A stretch of 64,000 nucleotides of DNA from Ilex aquifolium. Lineage: Eukaryota; Streptophyta; Magnoliopsida; Aquifoliales; Aquifoliaceae. Below, piece by piece: positions 5,445-51,647 of this stretch (the first letter of the stretch is position 1; every line of letters starts with the position of its first letter). Position numbers and translations under genes: made by a program. The DNA is taken from contig OX637395.1 of the NCBI GenBank assembly GCA_951799425.1, positions 36,914,323-36,978,322 of the forward strand, given 5' to 3'. Under the pieces are notes generated by a model. The model saw only the letters and a list, made by a program, of their open reading frames with translations. It made no database searches and was not told where the DNA came from.

Positions 5445-5692
5445 AAAAAGAATGAGAGAGAAAGAGAGACCAAAAAAAAAGTAAGAAATGGGTCTAGAAT
5501 ATAGATCACTTGGGATAATAAAAACTATGAGTGTCTTTTCTGAAATTTTAATAAATCCCAAGGGATATATGTATAATTCTCCCTAACATTTACCAAGTAC
5601 ATCCACTCTTCCGTTCGACTCTTTTTCTCCCCCATCTAAATACCACACCGGAGGAGGAGAGAGACTGACCGGTACACCCACCCACCATTAAA

Positions 5693-6997
5693 ATGGATTT
5701 CCACCTCAACCACCACCTCCCCGGCGGCTCTCCTTCCTCCTCCACCTCCTCCTCCGACCGGAACCCTAACTCCTCTTCCCACCACCACAATAATGGCCAC
5801 AACACCAACAACGACCCAATGCACTCCTGGTGGGAGTCCATCTCCAAAGCCCGCTCTCGCATCCACCTCCTCTCTTCCATCCTCCCCGACTCCACTTCCA
5901 ATTCTCTCTCCTCCGTCGCCGACTCCGACCGCCCTGCCCGCTCTCTCCTCTCCTCCTCCGCGGCCTACTCTGCCGTCTCCTCTCTTCTATCCTCCCCTTC
6001 CTCCGGCTCCGGCGATGATCCCCTCTGCCACTGGCTCTACGACACTTTCCTCTCCTCCGATTCTGATCTCCGCCTCGTCGTCCTCTCCTTCATCCCCCTC
6101 CTCTCCTCTCTCTACCTCTCCCGGATTCACTCCAATTCCATCCCCTCCTCCTCCGCCACCACTGCCACGCCCTCCCTCGCTGGCTTCGAAGCCGTTCTTC
6201 TCGCTCTCTACTCCTCCGAAACCAAATCACGCGCCGGCAAACCTATCCTGATTAACATTCCCGATCTCTCTCAGCCCTCTCTTTACCACACGCCTCGAAA
6301 CAATATCGTTACTAGTAAGTCAAACCCTAACCCTAATTCTTCTTCAGCCAGTCAATCTAATCGGTTACCGTCTATCGGAGTTCTTTGTCCTCCCTTAGAG
6401 CCCCAAAACGCTGTGAAATCAACGAAACGTGCCTGCATTGTTGGCGTCGCATTAGATTGTTATTACAAGCAGATCTCCCAGATGCCGAGTTGGTCCAAGC
6501 TCGATTTCTGTACATTCGTGGCCGATTGGGCCGGTCAGGACTGCCCTTGCAAGTTCGAATTTGACCAAAAAACCGACCTTGTCATCGAAAACAACGGATT
6601 TTCTGAGAATTCTAGGGTTCAGGAAATCAATGATGCTGTGGAAGAGATGAGGAATTTGAGAATTGGTGAAAATTCGGAGAATTCGATCCCAAAAGGGCCT
6701 AGAATTCCGTTGCCATGGGAGCTATTCCAACCGGTGTTGAGAATTATGGGGCACTGTTTGTTGGGTCCCCTGAATTCGGAGGATGTGAAGGACTCTGCTT
6801 CAGTGGCAGTGCGGTGTTTGTATGCAAGGGCTTCGCATGATTTGGTTCCGCAGGCAATTTTGGCAGCAAGGAGTTTGATTCAGCTTGATAATAGAGCACG
6901 TGAGGCAGCAAAAGCTGCAGCAGCAGCCAATGCTGCTTCCAATGCTAATACGCCGAGTAAAGCAAAGAAGCCGGAGATCCTTTTGGTTTCGAAATGA
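5693..6997 (+). CDS. Hyccin-family protein (FAM126-like), putative PI4K-alpha complex subunit
   Basis: A single-exon gene of 434 codons, GC-rich and CT-rich in its first third, with its start at 5693 in good context. The core DDPLCHWLYDTFLSSDSDLR, then about residues 130-200 ending in 'FEAVLLALYSSE...GKPILINIPDLSQPSLYH', lines up by eye with animal hyccin/FAM126 ('EPVCHQLFEF', 'IEALLLGVYNLE', 'FRIPSLSKPSVYH'). In plants, hyccin proteins are reported as scaffold subunits of the plasma-membrane PI4K-alpha-1 complex, with NPG and EFOP partners, that makes PI4P. The first 50 residues are low-complexity Ser/Pro/His. The C-terminus has an Ala-rich helix (AREAAKAAAAANAAS) and a basic tail. No membrane segment is seen. 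The family is known; the role here is inferred. Confidence 0.85.
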   Translation: MDFHLNHHLPGGSPSSSTSSSDRNPNSSSHHHNNGHNTNNDPMHSWWESISKARSRIHLLSSILPDSTSNSLSSVADSDRPARSLLSSSAAYSAVSSLLSSPSSGSGDDPLCHWLYDTFLSSDSDLRLVVLSFIPLLSSLYLSRIHSNSIPSSSATTATPSLAGFEAVLLALYSSETKSRAGKPILINIPDLSQPSLYHTPRNNIVTSKSNPNPNSSSASQSNRLPSIGVLCPPLEPQNAVKSTKRACIVGVALDCYYKQISQMPSWSKLDFCTFVADWAGQDCPCKFEFDQKTDLVIENNGFSENSRVQEINDAVEEMRNLRIGENSENSIPKGPRIPLPWELFQPVLRIMGHCLLGPLNSEDVKDSASVAVRCLYARASHDLVPQAILAARSLIQLDNRAREAAKAAAAANAASNANTPSKAKKPEILLVSK

Positions 6998-19882: not shown

Positions 19883-20978
19883 CGTCAAAAGATCGAATTT
19901 TATTCCGAACCCGTTTAACCAAATATGAGCCAATATTTGTATCCATTTATTTGAATCCGTTTAAATATTTTAAATCGGATATGAATATGGATATATAAAA
20001 ATTCGATTTGATAAAAATCTGACCTAATTAATATATATATATATATATTGATTATTTATATTTGATCTAAAAAAAATATTATTTGTTAAAATTTTGGTGA
20101 AATACTATTACAGATCGGGTCAAGTAATTAGATCAAATGTCTTAATATAAGAAAATTCAGATATTTACTAATATTTTTATATCAGTCGAGTCAACATATT
20201 TGAATTTGCTAACAGATTTTTTAATGAAATTCGAATGGATTAGAATTCGGCCCGAATCCGATCCGCTGAACTTTCAAGTGCTAGACCAGGTTTTCCTCAT
20301 CAACTTCATTTTTTAATTAGACCCCACTAATTATTCAATATTGTAGTTGCCCCACTTGACGTGATAAACGAATTGCTAAAAAATATATTATTGCCCCCCA
20401 AAAAAAAAAATTTACTTTGTTCCTGTTGTCACTTGCCAGTTGTTTATACATATGCATCTTCTAGTTCTACCAATAAAACCGTTTAAAAATTCATTTTCTT
20501 AACAATTTGTGGCATAGTGCACGGAGTTTTTGTTACTGCAGAATTTAGCAAATGTATGCGCAACGGTTATTTTCGCGAGTCGACTCTCGACTCTAAAATC
20601 ATAATTAAACTCTGCACTTAATTTGCACGTCCTAAACTAATCAAATTAATGCAATTCACAGGTATATCCGGTGAGGATCTCCAAAAACAATGCTTCTGTT
20701 AGTGCCAAAAAGTCAATAAAACAAACACATATGTTCATGGACATGCATTCCAGTGGTCCATTCTGGCTATAATATCAAAGACTTCCTCTTCGCCGAGAAA
20801 TCCTATAGAAACAATCACAATCTCCTTGTTATTTCCTCCAACAAAGAACACATAGCTGTCAATGGATCTTACAAGAATATTACAAAACCATCAAGATAAT
20901 CATCCACAATATTTCTATTTGTACACAGCTTTCCCTGAAAAACTCGAAGAAAAAAAAACCTTTGAACTTGATCCTTCA
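19883..20978. other. Intergenic region upstream of the receptor-like kinase
   Basis: AT-rich, with a short (TA)n tract near 20030-20049 and dispersed 'gaatccgtttaaatatttaaatcggat'-type repeat phrases that recur at about 36230-36560. The last few hundred bases should hold the promoter and leader of the kinase gene. An in-frame ATG at 20862 is discussed there. Confidence 0.5.
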
Positions 20979-23393
20979 ATGGGCTCTTCTCAAACTCTCA
21001 AGTATCTTATGGCTATGGCTCTTTTTCTGTTATGCATATGCGCCATTGCCGTGGAGGAGCCTCCAATAGGTTCCCAAGGAGAAGAGAGAGAGGCCCTTTT
21101 GGCTCTCAAATCTGAATTCAACAATTCTTTTCTTGATGACAATTGGACTAGCCTCATTTGGAATATGAATAACACCCCAAATTGGTATGGCATTCAGTGT
21201 TTAAACGGTCGAGTCACCGGAATTCTGCTGGAAAATATGAGCCTGACTGGAGAAATCAAAGCTGATGCACTTGTCAACCTCACTGAGTTGTCCATATTGA
21301 GCTTTAAGAACAATTCCATTTCAGGGAATTTAATGGACTTCTCAAAGAATCAGAAGCTGAGTGAAATTGATTTATCAGGCAACCAGTTTGATGGATCAAT
21401 ATCAACTTCACTTCTGAGTCTTAATCTCTTGGAGTCATTGCAGCTTCAAGATAACAGATTAACTGGTTCAATCCCAGATTTCCACCTGCCTAACTTGAGG
21501 AAATTCAATGTATCGAATAACAATCTCTCGGGGCCGATACCAAACACTCTCCAATCATTCAACTATAATTCTTCATATGAGGGTAACAAGGATTTGTGTG
21601 GTCCACCCTCTCCCACAGACTGTAGTAGCACCAATAGTGACACATCAAAGGCTAACCATTCAAACGGTTCAACGTCTCGTTTTGCAGCCATTTTGATTGT
21701 TGTAGATGTTGTTGGCCTAATTGTTATTTTTTTCCTTTTCATTGTTTACTGCAAGAAATCCAGGAAGCTCAAGAAACAGATGGAGAGACTGAACTTAGTG
21801 GTAAAAGAAGAGGAAAAAAAAGATGAGACACAGATAGAGATAACAGAAGAGAGAAGCAGAATAATTCAAGGAGATCAAGACAAAGGGAAGCTCACATTCA
21901 TGAATGATCATGAAATGCAATTTGAGCTAGCAGATCTGTTAAAAGCCTCGGCGGACGGATTGGGGAAAGGGAATTTTGGAAACTGTTACAAGGCTATGGT
22001 GAATGATGGACTAGCTGTGGTTGTGAAGAGGCTAAGGGACTTGAAACCATTGAGCAGTGATGAATTTGTGCAGCAACTGATACTAATTGCAGATCTGAAG
22101 CATCCAAACTTGTTGCCTCTTCTTGCTTTCTACTATTCCAAAGATGAGAAATTGTTGATGTACAGGTTTGCATCTAATGGCAACGTTTACAATCGCCTTC
22201 ACGGTAAGTTTATTATCGATTGTTCATGTTCTTGATCATTCTTCAGTTGGTCCCTAAACATTTTATATGAAAAACAACACAATATAGTCTTTGGCTAACA
22301 AAAATATCATGCATAATAAGATCTTGCCTCGAGCGAGTCACATATTGTTTGATTATATTTTAGAAACTTTTTTATACTTTAAGGTTAAAGCGTTAATCTG
22401 AAGAAGTGCTCATAGAACTCCTGTAAATGGCTCAATCAATTATATACCTTCTCTCTTGATTCTTTCGATAGATGTCCAAATTCATATTAGAAATAATAAG
22501 AAAACTAGGAATTAGAATAGTATGAGTAAGACGATTACTTCAAAGTGATTTTGGAACAAATGGATGTATAAAGAAATCGATTTTGATGCTATGTCCATTC
22601 CTTGTATGGAATTTATATCTATACATATAAAGATAATACTGGAGATTCTTTTCCTCTATGTTCTTGGCAACCAAACACACGAGTCTTTATGCAATTATAC
22701 TGGATGTCATGTATAGGAGGAAAAGGGACAAAGGATCGGATTCCATTTCGATGGAGCTCAAGATTATCTGTTGCTCGCGGTGTAGCTCGGGCTCTGGAGT
22801 ATCTGCACCTAAACCCTAAATCCCAAACCATTGTTGTCCCTCATGGGAACTTAAAATCATCCAATGTTCTCCTCGACGAGAACAATATGGTGCTTGTCTC
22901 GGATTATGGTTTCACTTTGCTCGTTGCACCGCCACTGGCTGCTCAACGTATGATTTCATACAAATCACCAGAGTACCAAACTTACAAAAAAGTCTCGAGA
23001 AAGTCAGATGTATGGAGCTATGGATGCCTGCTTTTAGAGCTCTTGACCGGAAGAATTCCGGCTAACTCAGCTCCACAAGGCATCAATGGTGTTGAGTTGT
23101 GCAGTTGGGTTCACAGGGCTGTTAGAGAAGAATGGACGGCTGAGATTTTCGACGTGGAAATATCAGTGCAGAGAGGTGCCAACAATGGGATGGTGAGGCT
23201 ACTACAAATTGCAGTGAAGTGTTGCGATAAGTCACCGGAAAAGAGGCCGGAGATGAGTGAGGTGGTGAGAGAGATTGACAACATAAAGGTGGTGGCCAAC
23301 TCGGAAGACGAAGAAGATTTCTCGATGGATCCATCGTTGACGGATGACTCCATTTCTGCAACTCCATCCTTGGTCATTAGTGGAGAAGAGTGA
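20979..23393 (+). CDS. LRR receptor-like kinase, LRR-III type, probably catalytically inactive
   Basis: Two exons, 20979-22203 and 22717-23393, with a GTAAGT donor, give 633 residues. I chose the start at 20979 because it opens directly into a signal peptide (MGSSQTLKYLMAMALFLLCI); an in-frame ATG at 20862 would put 39 extra residues before it. Order: signal peptide, LRR N-cap, about five LRRs to near residue 205, a short Ser/Asn-rich linker, a transmembrane helix (FAAILIVVDVVGLIVIFFLF, about residues 235-255), a basic and acidic juxtamembrane part, then the kinase fold. The glycine loop (GKGNFG) and the VVVK lysine are present. The HRD motif reads HGN (VPHGNLKSSN), losing the catalytic Asp, and DFG reads DYG, as in many plant LRR-III pseudokinases. 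It should sit in the plasma membrane as a signalling receptor. Its ligand cannot be told. Confidence 0.9.
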
Positions 23394-27275: not shown

Positions 27276-29888
27276 ATGATGATGCTGAGCAGAACTTCAA
27301 TCAAAAGTGTGACTCGCGGATTTTCCGTCATCGTCTGCAACAATCCCATTCTCAACATCATCGAAAGGTAATTTCTTGTTCTTACATTTTATTGATTCTT
27401 ATTTCTAGGGTTTTATCGACAAATGAAGTTAATAGATATGCCACGCAATGACCCTTCATTTTTTTCCCTTTTTTTTTAGTGGAGGTCTGGTCAGATGTTG
27501 ATGTTAATCCGGATTTCAAACGAATCCCATTTCGTTTTTCCTGAGTTTTGTCACTGTAACACTCAGAATGTCATTCATTAGTTAATATCTTTGATGAATT
27601 CATCGATCAACACTCGATTAATACCCTCCCCAATCTGTGTTAAAGACAGACCAGACTAGAGAATTCATAAGAATAAATCTCCAATACCTTAGCCCGTGGA
27701 AGTTGTCAAGTTTCGAAGTCAGGATGTGTGGATTTACATCTCATCCCCGTCTCCGCTAGGCTACCCTTGGGGTTGGTTGTATGCCTATGTTTTCATTCCC
27801 GACACAATTGATAGGATTTTGCATATTAATGGCAAAATAGTAATGGTCTTTGGGATTTTTTTTGCTTGAGTTGTGCTACTTGGACCTAGTGCGGAGAACT
27901 AATTTGGGGACCTAATTCATTGTAGTCATTCAAATGTTTAGTGTGACCCATTTTCAATCCAACTGCTGTCATATATTAGGTCTCCAAACTAGGTCGCACG
28001 CTAGGTGCAATTAGCATTTTCCTTGTTTTTTTCTTTGCCCTAGTAGTTATTTTATAGGCGGGTCTATATTCATATAGCGTTTTTTATGTTGAAGGTCTGT
28101 CGTGATGGGTGATGTGGTTTATGCAGGGATCCTTATTTTTTGCCTGAAGCCACTTCTTTTGCGCATTTTCTTCATTGTATCACATTTGGAAACCAGAGGA
28201 GCTACAAGTCAGAGGGACCTCTTACACAAGTGTCAAGGAAATCCTCTACAGGGAATGCCTTATTGTTTCAAAGATCGGCCATGTTCAAGCCACTTCATGT
28301 TTTTCTGAAATGTTTGTATGCTAGACATGTGAGCAGTGTGTCGATTGAGCTCAAGACAGATAACGATATTGTCAGGTTTAGTATCGGTAAACAGATGGAT
28401 AGTAATGAGTCTCCAACAAAAGGAAAGAGGACAGCCAAAAAGTTCAAAATGTCTAAAAAGGCCAAACGGAATGAACTCAGGTTATATCGCTTGAAGGCAA
28501 AGAAAAAAATGAGATCTGGCAATCCAGAAGTCAGGATAAGATACAAACTTGAAAAGGTTGGAAATCTCGTAGATTTCTTAACTGTTTATTTATTTAGGTT
28601 TTTGGCATTTAATGATTATTGTATTTTTTTCATTGGGCACTTGGCTATGATTGGGTTCATAATCTGTATAGCAGGTGAATAGATAAATGGCAGCAACTAA
28701 AGCTTTTGTCTTGTGTTTTCCCATATTTTTTCTTCTATGTCTTGTTTGCAAGTACTGGTAATTGGATAAGTTGGTTGTTTGATTTTCCTGTTATATAAGA
28801 ATCACAAGTTGATAAGCTCGTTCATGAGCAATTTGTAATGTGACTATACTGGGGTTTGAGCACCGTATTTACCTTTTGAATGACCCACAGGCTAAATATA
28901 GACAAGATATCTTCCTACTTCACATAATGGTCCAGAGTTTCTCTCCTTTGTGTGTGTGTGTGTGTGCCTATATGTGCGCGTCTGGGTGCGTGTTTGTGCT
29001 TGTTCCAATGGATTGTAGTTGAAGCCACCTAATTATGTTAAGTGCTTGATTTTATTACACTTCTTATAATGCTATTTTGCAGGCGAAACGAAAGGAAGAA
29101 TGGTTGATTGAGAAACTGAGGAAATTTGAGGTACCTAAAGCCCCAGCTGAAGCATATGATCCTGAAATTCTTACTGAAGAAGAGATGTTTTACCTAAAGC
29201 GAACGGGTGAGAAAAAGAAAAATTATGTTCCACTTGGGAGACGAGGAGTATTTGGAGGAGTTGTTCTAAACATGCATCTCCACTGGAAGAAGCATGAGAC
29301 TGTTAAGGTTATTTGCAAGCCTTGCAAGCCTGGACAGGTTCATGAATACGCTGAAGAACTTGCTCGGTTGAGCAAAGGCATCGTTATTGACATAAAACCT
29401 AACAATACTATAATATTCTATCGAGGAAAGAATTATGTTCAGCCCGAAGTTATGTCACCTCCAGATACTTTATCCAAAGCAAAGGTAATTTTTGGTGTTA
29501 TATTTTGCTCATATGTGGAATGCATTTTGTTTAAAAGCAGAGAGAAACATTTGGGGCTGGTTTTTATGTCATCTCGAGCCAAATATTTCATGAGATTGTT
29601 CAATCTCCATCACGATTGATTGTTTTCAAGCTATATCAGACCAGGATGGTTTATTATGTTTTCCACAAAATATATTATGCGTGTGCATCTGTATAAATTT
29701 TTCTTTCCTTCTCTAAATTGCAGGCCTTGGAAAAATATAGGTATGAGCAGTCCCTTGAGCATACAAGTCAGTTTATTGAGAAATTGGAGAAAGAGCTGGA
29801 AGATTATCATGAACACCTTGCTCGGTACAGGAAGGAGAAGGAGAAGGAGAAGGAGAATGCAGCACAGGATTCACTTGTTGATAATTGA
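27276..29888 (+). CDS. CRM-domain RNA-binding protein (similar to Arabidopsis At3g25440 type)
   Basis: Four exons, 27276-27367, 28127-28556, 29083-29484 and 29724-29888, give 362 residues. Three in-frame ATGs open the frame; the first is used. The N-terminus (MMMLSRTSIKSVTRGFS) is basic and lacks acids, like an organelle presequence, so import into chloroplast or mitochondrion is likely. A strongly basic stretch (KGKRTAKKFKMSKKAKRNEL) precedes the CRM domain in exon 3, which starts LTEEEMFYLKRTG and carries the GxxG loop GRRGVFGG, then HLHWKKHETVKV and IIFYRGKNY. CRM proteins of plants bind organellar RNA, mostly for group II intron splicing. The C-terminus is a coiled coil (EQSLEHTSQFIEKLEKELED) with an EKEKEKE run. 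The target RNA is unknown. Confidence 0.9.
27620..27785 (-). mobile_element. SINE-like element in CRM intron 1
   Basis: On the minus strand an A box TAGCCTAGCGG (27753-27763) is followed at normal tRNA spacing by a B-box-like GACTTCGAAAC (27710-27720). It resembles the head of the SINE at 1763 but is diverged. Borders and target duplication were not resolved. Confidence 0.4.
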
Positions 29889-44027: not shown

Positions 44028-45736
44028 TTTTCCATGGTGCTTCCAAAGGCCACCACTTGGCTCCCACAATCCACATATGATAAAATTGACAGGCTCAACA
44101 GGAATTTCCTATGGGGGGATACAGAAGAAAAAAAATGGGTGCACCTCATAAACTGGGACACTGTGTGTAAACCTAAAGAGATAGGAGGCCTAGGACTTTG
44201 AAAGTCAAGAGAAAGCAATCTGGCCACTCTTGCTAAGTTAGGCTGGAAAGTCAAGGAAAACAAAGACACCATGTGGGTGAAAGTTATTAAAGAAAAATAC
44301 ATTAAAAACACCTCACAGGAATGGGAACAAAAATCCAATAGTTCCACAATTTGGAGAGCTATTCTTAAAACAAAACAAATTGTTAAGGAAGGTACTAAAT
44401 GGCTCATTGGAAATGGTCAAAACATATCTTTCTGGACTGATTGGTGGTGTGGAGATACTTCTATTGTAAACAGAATGTAGGTTCCAACCACAGTTGATCC
44501 CAACACCACAGTGGATAACTTCATCGACCACTCAGGTAACTGGAACTTGAATCACCCAGGTATGCTCTTTCCCCCCAATCTTATCTCAGATATTCAGCTC
44601 ACTTGTATCCCCTGTAATAGTGATTTGATGGATACACAATGCTGGGGACTTTCTAATAATGGTTTTTTCTCTGTTTGTACTGCTTATAAATGGATTACCA
44701 AATCCAATGAGGAAAGTAACCTGTCAAACTTGAATTGGGATTGGATTTGGCACATGAAAATTCCACAAAAGCTAAAAAAATTTATCTGGCTTGTTCAAAG
44801 TGACAGAATCTTATCTAATCAACTCAGAGCAACTAGAAACATGACCAATGATGCAACTTGTGAGAGATGTAATGCCACTGCGAGACTACTTTGCATATCC
44901 TAAGAGACTGCTCCAAAGCACAAGCAATCTGGAGTGCTCTCTTAGGATACAACTACACACTGAACCCCCATGTCAATGATCTCCACAATTGGCTCCTTGA
45001 GAACTACATTAAGAAAAGGAAAGAAAAATGGAAAGGTGTTGAATGGCCGGTTGTTTTTTCATCTATTATCTGGCATATTTGGAAGGATAGGAACAAGGAG
45101 TGTTTTGAAAAAATTAAAACTCCCCCTGGTATCACTGCCAAAAATGCATGGCTTTTGGCACAGGAAATTAACTTTGCCTTCCTTGAAAACATTGAGTGCA
45201 AAGATCACTACTCCGAGAATCTAATTAGTTGGTCTTTTCCCCCTGCAGGGTGGATGAAGCTGAATGTAGACGGATGCTCCAAAGGGAATCCCGGTCTTGC
45301 TGCAGCGATTGGAGGCATTGTTAGAAGTGATCAAGGAGTTTGGCAAATTGACTTTTACGGAAGGCTTCCCAACTGCTCTAGCGCTCAAGCTGAACTCTGG
45401 GCAATTTATAAAGGACTTCAGATCACCCAATCCCAGGGCATGATGAATTTTATTGTGGAAACTAATTCACTGGATGACCATAGACTTCTCTCATCAAGAT
45501 TGGATGATTCCCACACGGAGAGAGGGATCATCGCAGAATGCAAGAGGCTGCTCACCCTTCTCAACTGCCCCATCCAACACACTCGAAGAGAAGGAAACTT
45601 CTGCGCTGACCACCTCACAAATTTTGGTGTCAAGCAGAATGATCATTTGGTGATCCTCAACTCCCCACCTAGCTCAATGGGAGAGCTTTTGAGATATGAT
45701 AGTGCTAGTGTCTCCTATGTGAGAGACTTTTGTTAA
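44028..45736 (+). mobile_element. 5'-truncated LINE (L1-type), dead
   Basis: The reading frames give the end of a plant LINE ORF2: reverse-transcriptase C-terminus (FLWGDTEEKKWVHLINW, PKEIGGLGL, LAKLGWKV), the zinc-binding region (CERCNATA then LHILRDCSKAQAIW) and an RNase H domain (LNVDGCSKGNPG, AQAELWAIYKGL, REGNFCADHL). The frame has a stop at 44199-44201, another at 44477-44479 and a shift near 44885, so it cannot make the protein. In the RNase H part the third catalytic Asp is replaced (VETNS instead of the usual VESDS). The endonuclease and most of the reverse transcriptase are missing. It ends about 200 bases before the start codon of the next gene. Confidence 0.88.
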
Positions 45737-45945: not shown

Positions 45946-48900
45946 ATGAGCTTGGCACTGGTGCAAGGCTACTCATCCGCAGATGAAGAAGAAGAAGAAG
46001 AACCCAAAGACCTAAACTCTTCAGACGATGAAGATGACGACGACGACGACGATGGAGACATTTCGAATAACCGTTCCGGCTACAAACCCTTGTTCGACTT
46101 CTCTGCAAACCCTTCCTCTTCTTCGTCTCTCCCGTCTGCTCTCGACATATTCTCTCAGGTAATCTTTATTGATTCTTCACTAGTTCCGGTTTTATTTCTA
46201 TTAATCAATAGGTCATATTGAAATGTTTTGTTTTTTTGAATTTTCGTAATTATCGGAGATTTCAGCACCGCCGGAGTTTCTGAACAATTGTGTCCAAGAA
46301 CCGGTGTCAAAAGATGTTGATGTGAAGCGATGGAGGCACGGTGGCCGGAGAAACCGTCAAGAGAAAAAAGATTTACCTGCCGGTAATGTGATTTAATTTT
46401 TCTTTCTCTGTAGTTTTTTACCTTAGTAGCTGGATAATTTAAGTTTTATAGTCGTACGTCGTTGAAACAATTGATAGGGAAGTTAGGATTTTGAGATTTG
46501 TTCTTTTTTTGATAGATCGTGGGGTTTCCCGATTTACGCTTAACAAAAACCTAAATTATCATTTTATGCTGACACTTAATCAAATTATTGTTTGAATATT
46601 GTTCACTTCAAATAGTACTTATTATTTAAAGAAATACTAGAAAGAATGCATGTGAATCTTGATTTTGGCTCCTCTTCAATTTTAGGTTTCCTTCCAATTC
46701 CTTATAAGAACAACCCTCCACCTTGAATCAGGTGTGCCACTGGGTTGAAGTAGATCCCCTATCACTATACAGTAGATAGATGATGGGGTTGGAAACAGTT
46801 AGAGACAATCTAAAATTGGAGAGGATCAAACTTGTGAATCTCTAGCCAAGTAGAAAACGAAATAAATAAATCGAAATTTCAGACAATTTGGAATGATTCA
46901 TGGGAATGGTCAATTTATGACAGTTTTGAATGTCTTATCATGTAGGAACTTTTTGTTATGTGCATATTTTTAATGTAGTATTAGAGTAGGTGGGTTAGTG
47001 ATGTGGTATTTATTAGATAATTGTGTCATGGGTTAGGGTAGTAATCAAAGTAATTTTATCATGTTGTATTTGAAGGCTATCTATCAATTAAAAAGTGTGT
47101 TGGATATTGTGATTAACTTTTTTTGTGAAGGTTTTGGAGGTCGGGTTCTACTAAAATTGCACTAGTGGAGGTTCTTTTCTCTCCGAAGCGGGATCTCTTT
47201 CTCCACTATTCTATTTTTCTTTTGTTGTATACATCTTCCAAAAGGTGAACATAACAATTGGTATTAGAATTAGACATGGAGGACTAAGTTAGTTGTCTGG
47301 AAGTGAAAGTTCACTCATTAATTGTGGGACAAGAAAGGATAATGAAGGAAATGCGTGAGTTATTTATCGTTTTGAACTCTCACTTTGATCAATTAGTAGC
47401 CAACCAATATCACTCAACTAGTAATGTGGAAAATTGCAGTAGTTATGAGAAATCGAGGAAGTCTTTGACTGTGACCAAATAAAAGCTTCGCAGTGAGGCA
47501 AGCCAAGATATGTATCTTATTTGCTCTCACTAACCAATAGCTTCTTTAGTAGAAGACAAAACACGAAAGACTTTAGGAATCGCAACTGTGGGAATCTATG
47601 GCAAACCAAGCTTCACTGTTCGTAGCAAAGCATGGTTTTGTCAACTACAAGCAGCTGTTGGAGCAAAACATGCAAGAACCACCCACTGTAGAGAACATTC
47701 AAGAACCAGCCATAATAGAGAATGCAACCTATTAGCCACCTCCCCATTCTCATTACAAATCAAAATTTAGGGACAAATTTTTTTTTAAAAGGGAAATGAA
47801 ATGTTATATACATATTTTTAATGTAACATTAGAGTCAGTTAATTAGAAGCTATTTAATAGGTGGGTTAATGATATGGTAGTTATTAGATAATGGTGTCAT
47901 TGATTAGGTTAGTTATCAAAGTAATTTTATCATCTTGTATTTAAAGTCACATCTATCAATTATAGTGTGTTGGAGTTGTCATGGACTTTCTTGTGGAAAT
48001 TTTGGAGTTCGGGTTCTCCTCGAAGTGAATTACCGGAGGTTTGACCCCCTCGAGGGGGGAAAGAACCTCCACTGGTTCAATTTGAATGGAATCTGACCTC
48101 CAAAACCTTCACAAAGAAAGTTAATCACAATATAATCCAACACACTTTTTAATTGATAGACATGCCTTTAAATACAAGATCTACTTTGGCAACTACCCTA
48201 ACCATAACACCATTATTTAATTATTGTCACATCACAAATCCACCTATTAAATAATTTCTAATTAACTAACTCTAATATTACATTAAAAAAATATGCACAT
48301 AACGTTCCATTCCCCTTTAAAAAAAAGTTTGTCTCAAAGTTGCATTTGAGAAGTAAAAAAGTAAGTGTCAACCCACTTCCATATACTCGTAACAATTCAC
48401 GTGATTAATTGTGTTTCTCCACAAAAAATGTAAGCAGATAGTTCTTGGCGAGGAGTTGTTGTTGGTAGGATTGACTGGGAGGAAGTAGACTTCTTTAATT
48501 CCATCTCATGCCTTACTTGCTTAAGGTTTGCTAGCCTAGAAACAATTGCAGCATCTTGATTCTCCAACCTTGAAGCCCTTCCAACAATTAATACAAGCAT
48601 ATCTTTGCTTGATGCCTCATCTATGATTTTTGATTTTACTTCTTGAAGAATTTTTTGAACCCTGTTTAAAATCCTCTTGCAATCGTTGATTTTCTTTGAT
48701 CAATCTCTTGAATGTTTTTTTGAAAATCAACATGCATCTACTTCAAAATCTCCAATTATGTCGCCATTATTATAATCGTCGACTCTGATACCAATTGTTA
48801 GGTGCACACTTTTCGGAAAAATATAAATAAGACGAAAAATATAATTGAGGAAAGGAAACCCATCTCGAAGGGAGTGGAATCGAGGGGAACCTGACCTCCA

Positions 48901-51647
48901 AAACTTCCACAAGAAAGTTCATGACAAATCCAACATACTTTTTAATTTGATAGAAATGCCTTTAAATACAAGATGACAATTACTTTGATAACTAACCTAA
49001 CCCATGACACCATTATCTAGTAACTACCACATCACAAACCCACCTATTAAATAACTTCTAATCAATTAACTCTAATATTACATTAAAAATATGCACATAA
49101 CACTTTTCTTCACCAAGGACTGGTACTGAATTCTGTTGATATTAGATAAAGCGTACCTTCTGTTGAAGTGTACCTTTTGGATGGGCCAAATGGCGGTGAT
49201 GGAGTATGGCGCTGAGACCCTTCTAGTGTCAGTCAAGGTCAATATGGAATGAGGATGTTATGTGTATTTATGAATTATTTATCTCGCTAATTTGGCCATT
49301 GTCCCACTGGTGTAATGTTCTAACTAGTAGCAATGAAAAGTAATGTTCTAACTAGTAGCAATGAAAAGTAATGTTCTAACTAGTAGCAATGAAAAGTAAT
49401 GTTCTAACTAGTAGCAATGAAAAGTAATGTTCTAACTAGTAGCAATGAAAAGTAAGGCAGCAAGGCTGCCATCTGGATGATTTGATGCTTCGCTTCTTTT
49501 CAAAAGGTATCTGTTGTTTGGCGACATTAGAACTCCATTTGAATTTTTCTTTTGAACAGGGAAAAAAAAAGAAAAAAAGAAATTCAAATGGGGTTTTCTA
49601 ATTGGTATGGATTTTAAGGTGTTAAATTATGACAGTTGTTAAATAGGCCTCTTTTTGCTTGGTATATAATTACATTTTTTATTCACTATTTTGGCAATTA
49701 GTTGCTTTTATCGTGATTCTACTTTTGCTGTAAGATCGGCTACCTTGTGCATGCTAATTCACAACGAATGCTTGTGTCTCTTACTACTCATGCTTGTGAT
49801 TTGTAGTGATGTGAAATTTGCATATCAGGATCAGTTAAAAGACTAACGAAAGTTTCATGATTTCAGTTTTTTTTTTGCCTTGGTAAATGTGGTTGTTTAG
49901 TGATCTGTTTGTCTACTTTAATCATTTGATATGCAGGGCTAAAATTACCTCCACCATGTTCTGAATCAGATGCGCATTTGCGAAATTGAACAAGATTCTG
50001 GATTAAAGGGTTGTTTTGTATTCAGTGAATAGTTTTGATGTTGTTGCTTAACTGCTGATGTTTCAAGGAAGTCATATCAGAGAAACTAAATCATCTCTGG
50101 TTTATAAATTTCTTGGCATTTTGCATTACAGATATTGACATGGTCATCCTGAAGTTTCTTTTTATGTCATATACATAGGTGTTATAGTCGAGGCCAAAGC
50201 TCAACTGGTTGGAATTCATGAGAGAGTAAGGAGTGATGTTGACGGCAACCTCTCCCGAACATCAGCTGTTCAACCTAATGGTTCTTTGAGCACACCGGAA
50301 GGAGGCAAGCGCGTGGTAACTGCTGCCAATCCAAATGCAGAAGATGCAGCAGAGCTTCTGAGGTACGTATCTTTTCTTTCTAACAGGTAGCTGAGGCATT
50401 TATTCATTTGAGTTCCCCTTATTATACCTTGAGGTGTTTGAAGGCTAATTTGTGTGTTTTGTTTGGTATATCCATAGAGGTACGGGGCATATGGTCCATG
50501 TTCTGATTACCCTTAATGAAAGATGAAAATTTTTAGTGATTACTGTTTAAGTGCTTTTGATTATGCACAATTAGTCACCCTAAAGGATTAACTTTCGCTT
50601 AAAATGGATTTGGCCTTTTTAGCTGGATAAGCTTTACTTTTTACTGAGAATGTTATGTGGAAGCCATCGTCTTAACTTATCAAAAAGTTGTAGAGGGAAG
50701 TTGCAAAAACAATTTTAAATCAACAATTTACTCTTACATGTTATGTGAAGTTTGAAGGGCTTGAACTAATAAAATGGTAAGTGAAGAGTATGGTCCCCAT
50801 TATTTGAGAGTGCTGTGAAGGACAGACGGGTATAGAGCCAACTCTTATACATGATTCGTACGATTGGCTGCTCTCATTTTTGAACCTACAACTTCACGAT
50901 TGTTAGCCCAACACTTTTTACCACTGCATCAGTCAATGATCCCTGCTTGTACTACTGATTTTGCACTAATTTATTAGTTTTATCTGGCAGTATGAAGTTT
51001 TGATGGTCAATTATTTTATTTATGAGAAGTAGTAGCATAGGTCGCTTACAAAATTTTCTAGGCCCATATTTTACATATATAGGTTTCTCAGTTTGCACAA
51101 GAGTGAAACAAGTGGTTTATTATTTTAAAGAAGAGTTAAGACTTCGTCTTTTTGGTGATATATGGGTATGACTCTGCACTTACACAATGTTATTTAGCAA
51201 TAAATTTGAGATCATAACATATTGTGGGACCCATAAACTTTATGCTCTCTGACCAGGCAATATAATTATATTTGTCGTGTTTGCAACCTTGTAGCTTCCA
51301 ACCATACTCCCTCTCCCTCATGTTTTCATCTGTGTGAATATGTAAAATGAAAATTCTTGTTGTGCATTGACATGTAAATGTGCATACTGTATGTTGCTAA
51401 GAATGGACGAGTTTCTTTTTGTAGGATGTGCCTACAGTGCGGAATCCCCAAAACATACTCTAATGCACGGGGAATAGTATGCCCTGTATGTGGTGATCGC
51501 CCTCCTGCAGACACAGACAAAGAGTCACTGAAGAAGAAGGGATCCACCATTAAAGATAAGGAGAAGAGTAAAAGAATGAAGGGTCAGTCATCTCATGCTT
51601 CGTGGAAAAGTGAGACAGAGATGCAGCTTCGACAGCAGTTTGATTAG
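45946..51647 (+). CDS. Acidic protein with C-terminal zinc ribbon, function unknown
   Basis: Four exons, 45946-46158, 46259-46382, 50179-50362 and 51425-51647, give 247 residues. I chose the start MSLALVQGYSSADEEEEEEP at 45946; an in-frame ATG at 45802 would add 48 residues of unconvincing sequence. The N-terminus is strongly acidic (Glu run, then SSDDEDDDDDDDGD). A basic patch follows (KRWRHGGRRNRQEKKD). The C-terminus carries two Cys pairs (CLQCG and CPVCG, 13 residues apart), a likely zinc ribbon, then a Lys-rich tail. The acidic-basic-zinc layout suggests a nuclear protein, but I do not recognise the family. Intron 2 is 3.8 kb and hosts the composite LTR element and a minisatellite. The exon 2 acceptor (GGAG at 46258) is weak but is the one that keeps the frame. 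Confidence 0.75.
46954..48051 (+). mobile_element. Left half: miniature LTR retrotransposon, plus orientation
   Basis: The 303-bp 5' LTR runs TGTTATG...CATAACA (46954-47256) and is followed by a decayed primer-binding site TTGGTATTAGAAT. The internal part is 545 bp with stops in every frame. A polypurine tract (AAAAGGGAAATGAAA, 47787-47801) precedes the 3' LTR, which starts TGTTATATACATA at 47802 and stops after about 250 bp at the central palindrome. Confidence 0.75.
48052..49102 (-). mobile_element. Right half: miniature LTR retrotransposon, minus orientation
   Basis: Read on the minus strand: a 307-bp 5' LTR (49102 to 48796), the primer-binding site TGGTATCAGAGTC (48793-48781) typical of plant initiator tRNA-Met priming, about 460 bp of internal sequence, a polypurine tract AAAGGGGAATGGAA (48318-48305), and a 3' LTR from 48304 (CGTTATGTGCATA) truncated at the central palindrome. 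Its LTRs match those of the left half, but its internal sequence is clearly different. Confidence 0.78.
49313..49452. repeat. Minisatellite, 28 bp x 5
   Basis: Five perfect head-to-tail copies of a 28-bp unit starting TAATGTTCTAACTAGTAGCA and ending ATGAAAAG, inside intron 2 of the zinc-ribbon gene. There are no spacers, so it is not a CRISPR array. Confidence 0.97.
50790..50945 (-). mobile_element. SINE-like element in intron 3 of the zinc-ribbon gene
   Basis: On the minus strand the head TGATGCAGTGGTAAAAAGTG leads to a B-box-like AGGTTCAAAA (50877-50886). The body ends 'CTCTCAAATAATGGGGACCA', matching the copy at 8103-8262. No target duplication was found. Confidence 0.5.

Follow-up and report, generated by a model that had tools for sequence, protein, structure and literature searches.

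Inverted, tail-to-tail LTR retrotransposons within a single target duplication: a possible trace of like ends of two cDNAs integrating together

Complex LTR elements formed by template switching were described by Sabot and Schulman in 2007 from Triticeae, rice and maize, and switching between co-packaged RNAs was proposed as the origin of these direct complexes (PMC1950507). Integration from two donor DNAs in vitro is mentioned in passages of PMC2857682, and assays for it are described in part of PMC11054761. For HIV, passages of PMC5041404 report that when one functional end is lost, host enzymes join that end, with rearrangements, and PMC5651808 that second-strand transfer can be intermolecular. 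The fused elements of PMC1950507 are direct-orientation units, from which the inverted, like-ended units considered here differ.

The locus lies in a 64-kb stretch of the 800-Mb assembly of Ilex aquifolium (C5:36914323-36978322), which we call the window. A sequence-only reading had placed in it two miniature LTR retrotransposons fused tail to tail, and this order was confirmed at 46954-49102. In each half the outer LTR is followed inward by a 2-base spacer and a PBS-like TGGTAT(T/C)AGA, and a purine-rich tract adjoins the inner LTR. On the plus strand, the complete LTR1 (46954-47256, 303 bp, TGTTATG...CATAACA) is followed by internal region A (47257-47801), with its PBS-like TGGTATTAGA at 47259-47268 and its purine-rich tract directly 5' of 47802, and by LTR2 (47802-48053), of which only the U3 and R part is present and which ends after TCGA (48050-48053). 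On the minus strand, LTR3 (48050-48303, first base C, not T) likewise consists of U3 and R only and ends after TCGA; it is joined to internal region B (48304-48795), with a PBS-like TGGTATCAGAG at 48793-48783 and a purine-rich tract adjoining 48304, and to the complete LTR4 (48796-49102, 307 bp). As claimed, both outer ends are U3 starts, both inner LTRs are cut at the join, and CTTTT repeats directly at 46949-46953 and 49103-49107. Two random 5-mers from the window agree by chance with P of about 0.0018, and CTTTT has a frequency of 0.0027 in the window and 0.0041 in the flanks.

Inverted matches within the unit are far above chance (E down to 1e-109). The internal parts had been said to differ; this holds for their middles, while their PBS and PPT ends are alike, the last 45 bp being 80% identical. 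Because regions A and B differ in the middle, a simple foldback of a single element was rejected. The unit shows the traits of an integrase-type LTR retrotransposon, namely an LTR pair, a PBS, a PPT and a short target duplication. A search of the rest of the 64-kb window for the missing 3' LTR pieces gave no convincing remnant: the best LTR or internal match is 46 bp long at 74% (E 0.001), and nhmmer gave none. Structured RNAs of Rfam, such as a hammerhead, were also considered and dropped, with no match in the unit up to E 5 and none in the window at gathering score. Among the surroundings, a perfect minisatellite of a 28-bp unit repeated five times occupies 49312-49455, 0.2 kb to the right of the composite, and frames elsewhere in the window correspond to Hyccin (5669-6997), an LRR and protein kinase protein (20856-23393), a CRM domain (29050-29619) and an RNase H-like RVT_3 domain (44873-45736).

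At the centre of the unit, the join CCCCCTCGAGGGGG (48045-48058) contains the TCGA common to both LTRs, a self-complementary motif that therefore matches in either orientation. Family LTRs in the fetched loci run through this site, most commonly as CCCCCCTCGAAGCGGG (11/35 pattern matches), and TCGA is present in 30/35, counts that lean toward such sequences because the pattern demanded C-runs and CTC(G/A)A. Since the family LTRs read through the motif, each inner LTR looks native up to TCGA; in the outer LTR1 and LTR4 the motif has decayed. RNA folds at the motif are no better than those of shuffled sequence (z from -1.32 to 0.50), and a special fold at this place was rejected on these values. 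The join is a single copy in the assembly: a 181-bp query across it returned 49 matches (best 40 of 47 candidates scored), and only the window copy crosses it, forward and as its own inverted image, the other listed matches stopping on one side. The suggestion that the composite might itself be a mobile form is therefore not supported, at least among these matches. The left flank (394 bp) was found once and led to no empty site in the same assembly.

The two halves belong to a family of small LTR elements, mostly in direct orientation. Four LTR queries, with 83, 213, 302 and 352 candidates, yielded at least 80 clusters, including the window, on at least 20 contigs; as about 40 candidates were scored per query, these family counts are lower bounds. 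Typical relatives have direct LTRs of about 360-384 bp and, between them, up to 0.8 kb of internal sequence. The two ends of an LTR form a nearly symmetric inverted repeat (in four LTRs, 11-14 of 16 bases agree), and the LTR termini TGTTATGTGCAC and TGTTACGTGCAC are near-identical. TRIM LTRs measure about 100-250 bp, and an assignment to TRIMs was set aside on the lengths of LTR1 (303), LTR4 (307) and the relatives (358 and 384 bp). The 223-aa frame of one relative, L049, has no Pfam match.

Internal regions of type B occur elsewhere at six or more places, at full or nearly full length and with 76-81% identity. Direct-orientation LTR sequence, complete or broken, lies on both sides of them at C12 (L013), C2, C11, C8 and C14, and only the 3' LTR is present at C19; the pieces fetched at these six places contain no inverted LTR. 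In the B-type relatives L013, L082 and L086 the 3' LTRs are broken off or interrupted by unrelated sequence. Among the 40 matches listed for internal region A, relatives cover mainly its first ~150 bp; one match is longer (positions 142-473, 74%), and another covers 96 bp (80%). B-type elements also stand alone elsewhere. The two halves thus represent two subtypes of one family. At C8:9654675-9657377 (L053/L063) the family also includes a direct tandem array with three LTRs and two internal regions, similar to the published direct complexes.

Mixed orientation recurs within this family. Fetched loci with at least two LTR stretches gave 47 rows, of which 12 were judged duplicates by their coordinates, leaving 35 distinct elements, 33 direct and two mixed (L035 and L049). 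DIRS-type elements normally carry inverted LTRs and are not known to make a target duplication, and such an identity was ruled out by the 5-bp duplication together with the direct orientation of 33/35 multi-LTR relatives. A further case, L087, lies outside the 35-element set and came up as opposite-strand neighbours in an LTR query. Both strands were seen in three of at least 80 clusters, and L035, whose inverted piece is short, is the fourth mixed case besides the window, L049 and L087; pieces as short as that of L035 are visible only where the surrounding DNA was fetched, so that four of 80 is a lower bound. The three relatives were selected by orientation, before their duplications were inspected. 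L035 (C17) is flanked by an exact CTAAC and L049 (C1) by an exact ACATG, both with U5/U5 outer ends, and L087 (C3) reads AAATC, the first 77 bp of U3(+), a complete LTR(-) and AAATC, with U3/U3 outer ends. By the same scan, limited to TGTT and AACA/AATA borders and to the best pair of these, exact duplications were found in 7/33 direct elements. That all four mixed clusters combine an exact 5-bp duplication with like outer ends (the window and L087 having U3/U3, L035 and L049 having U5/U5) favours one integration per composite.

The inner joins of these relatives vary. In L035 the internal region ends within the PBS at GCTCTGA and the U5 starts at CCCCTCGAAG, the same LTR motif as at the window join. 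L087 is joined at AAGTGGATTGTTACG with the inner end ATTGTTACG, and L049 at a PBS, with CATAACATT followed by TGGTATCAGAG. The inner ends of L087 and L049 would fit a U5 end and a U3 end, respectively, still carrying two extra bases as on unprocessed cDNA, a resemblance that in both cases is suggestive only. Between the inverted and the truncated LTR of L049, positions 1319-1376 hold a PBS-like stretch and then two copies of ATGTTATGTAG; this third fragment or filler cannot be fully explained. The centres of both units were found once: only L035 spans both sides of its join by more than 8 bases among 61 matches listed, and only L049 spans its query among 40 matches listed, one ordinary copy matching positions 17-60 of the L049 query because the LTR ends are near-symmetric.

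Relationships among the four LTRs of the window add a complication. Trees built on the U3-R pieces, to which L013 contributes 157 bp, do not pair the LTRs by half and put LTR1 with LTR3 and LTR2 with LTR4. This crossed tree beats the by-half tree by 10.8 log units without outgroups (AU p of the by-half tree 0.063) and by 16 log units with eight further LTR sequences (AU p 0.023). U3 alone does not discriminate between the pairings, its differences being mostly private to one LTR, and it is the R part that groups 1 with 3 and 2 with 4. A complex of the Sabot-Schulman type calls for outer LTRs that resemble each other most. By plain identity LTR1 and LTR4 are the top of the six pairs (89.3% over 230 columns), by a small margin, while the trees pair them otherwise. 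The four LTRs and L013 have two deletions in common relative to seven other aligned family LTRs. Placing the B-type copy L013 with LTRs 2 and 4 or with LTRs 1 and 3 differs by 0.2 log units, and an assignment of LTR type to internal region was given up on this account. Judged by K2P distances of 0.14-0.25 among the LTRs of the window, the elements are old.

Our preferred reading is that the unit arose in one integration whose inserted ends were the U3 ends of two different cDNAs of this small non-autonomous LTR family; we give it a probability of roughly 0.43. Related elements A and B would have shared a particle, in which integrase paired their U3 ends, one from each cDNA, and not the two ends of one cDNA. 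Both U3 ends would have been joined across one 5-bp stagger, leaving the single CTTTT duplication that is observed, and the free distal ends would have been trimmed and sealed, presumably by host end joining, at the overlapping TCGA. L035, L049 and L087 would then be accidents of the same kind, with U3/U3 or U5/U5 ends. The single integration of a U3-to-U3 ended DNA from two different elements, as envisaged by the sequence-only reading, gains support from the lack of a leftover LTR piece in the window and from the exact duplications of the three relatives. Points in favour of two-molecule integration are that the exact duplication encloses the whole unit and the missing LTR pieces are absent from the window, that both outer ends are complete and both inner LTRs cut, that the U3 fragment of L087 is nearest to its own LTR (72/77 identical positions, compared with 69-70/77 for six other LTRs), and that two donor DNAs can be integrated in vitro. 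We put it first because it explains why the ends are alike and the duplications exact, why trimming can occur on either side, and why the inner ends of L087 and L049 are complete. Three observations speak against it: the crossed LTR pairing, the short extra fragment of L049, and the position of the window and L035 joins in one shared LTR motif, a feature not expected from end joining. As a plain fusion of two intact cDNAs predicts that LTR1 equals LTR2 and LTR3 equals LTR4, the crossed pairing must involve an extra step, either intermolecular strand transfer among the cDNAs of a particle, prior to integration, or a subsequent inversion of the centre. The broader proposition that integrase repeatedly inserts like ends (U3 with U3 or U5 with U5) of two co-packaged cDNAs at one target, with the middle sealed by host end joining, is tentative and somewhat short of even odds.

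Not far behind is a same-sense template switch during reverse transcription, which we regard as rather doubtful. Here the plus strand of A, paused in R at TCGA, would anneal to the same self-complementary site of the plus strand of B and copy it back to its 5' end, the U3 start, giving a linear DNA with U3 at both ends for a single integration; in L035 the same would have happened, in mirror image, on minus strands. The exactness of the outer ends, the join at TCGA and the presence of only one duplication would thus all come from one step, and it suits this account that the joins of the window and of L035 share an LTR motif. The switch also fits particles with two cDNAs, in which intermolecular second-strand transfer would also account for the crossed LTR pairing. 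However, inner LTR ends as complete as those of L087 and L049 demand jumps to the very end of a strand, and that the strand pauses or an RNA ends at TCGA is conjecture; folds there are no better than shuffled. The single TCGA microhomology is compatible with both the template switch and two-molecule integration, and that one or the other of these two accounts is correct seems to us quite probable.

A post-integration history, in which a copy entered an older element, or landed next to it, in inverted orientation and deletions followed, is unlikely. In its nested version, a deletion between the near-identical LTR termini would have removed the far end, and a second one at TCGA would have taken both U5 parts, leaving the duplication of the older element. 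The near-symmetric LTR ends provide short direct repeats for such deletions, the elements are old, the palindromic core is identical in both orientations, and each case taken alone could have arisen in this manner. Nevertheless, two insertions and two exact deletions would have to give the same clean outcome at all four loci, and no half-way nested state was seen among the 35 distinct multi-LTR elements. Nesting further predicts a pairing of the LTRs by half, against which the trees speak, and LTR4 directly abuts CTTTT, with neither a far-side host remainder nor a second duplication; had there been two target sites, the chance of finding CTTTT at both would be about 0.002-0.004. Local inversion between two insertions, or the flipping of a single LTR at its terminal inverted repeats, is very improbable. 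A centre flip would yield the 1-3 and 2-4 pairing, and a single flipped LTR would account for the inverted one of L049, whose duplication would be preserved. But neither form produces four LTRs arranged tail to tail, with the inner two cut and one duplication shared, inversion fails for the 77-bp U3 fragment fused to a complete inverted LTR in L087, and it is needed at most as a later step.

If the two-molecule reading is true, like-ended inverted units would record which cDNA ends were brought together at integration and would show that a particle contained more than one cDNA, a question difficult to address in plants. With their exact duplications, such units would then form a recognisable class of genomic scar, and their recurrence within one family raises their interest. 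They would also supply long inverted repeats, and thereby possibly hairpin RNA and silencing, and annotation that assumes direct LTRs would miss or split them. In a literature search mostly outside subscription journals, we recognised no account of inverted-LTR units that carry target duplications among integrase-type elements, which is weak evidence of novelty.

Among known systems, DIRS-type elements (passages of PMC5633606) similarly have inverted LTRs around an internal region; however, they are tyrosine-recombinase elements, whereas the relatives of the window unit have direct LTRs and the inverted units have 5-bp duplications. The family resembles small non-autonomous elements of the TRIM/Cassandra type as portrayed in passages of PMC7215508, being short, equipped with a PBS and a PPT and coding for little or nothing, and a direct multi-LTR array, as in TRIM-like elements, is also present (L053); unlike in these elements, the LTRs here measure 303-384 bp, and the Cassandra passages make no mention of inverted tail-to-tail units. 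The proposed event is similar to the concerted integration by retroviral integrases in parts of PMC2857682 and PMC11054761, where ends of two DNAs enter one staggered target, although that is a test-tube reaction and here the event would be read from genomic scars of an LTR retrotransposon. Closest are the complexes of Sabot and Schulman (PMC1950507), which also consist of two fused elements with one 5-bp duplication around the whole and are also explained by co-packaged templates and one integration. Those complexes have a direct orientation and three LTRs, the middle one shared, whereas in the window unit the halves are inverted, four LTRs are present with the inner two cut, and both outer ends are U3.
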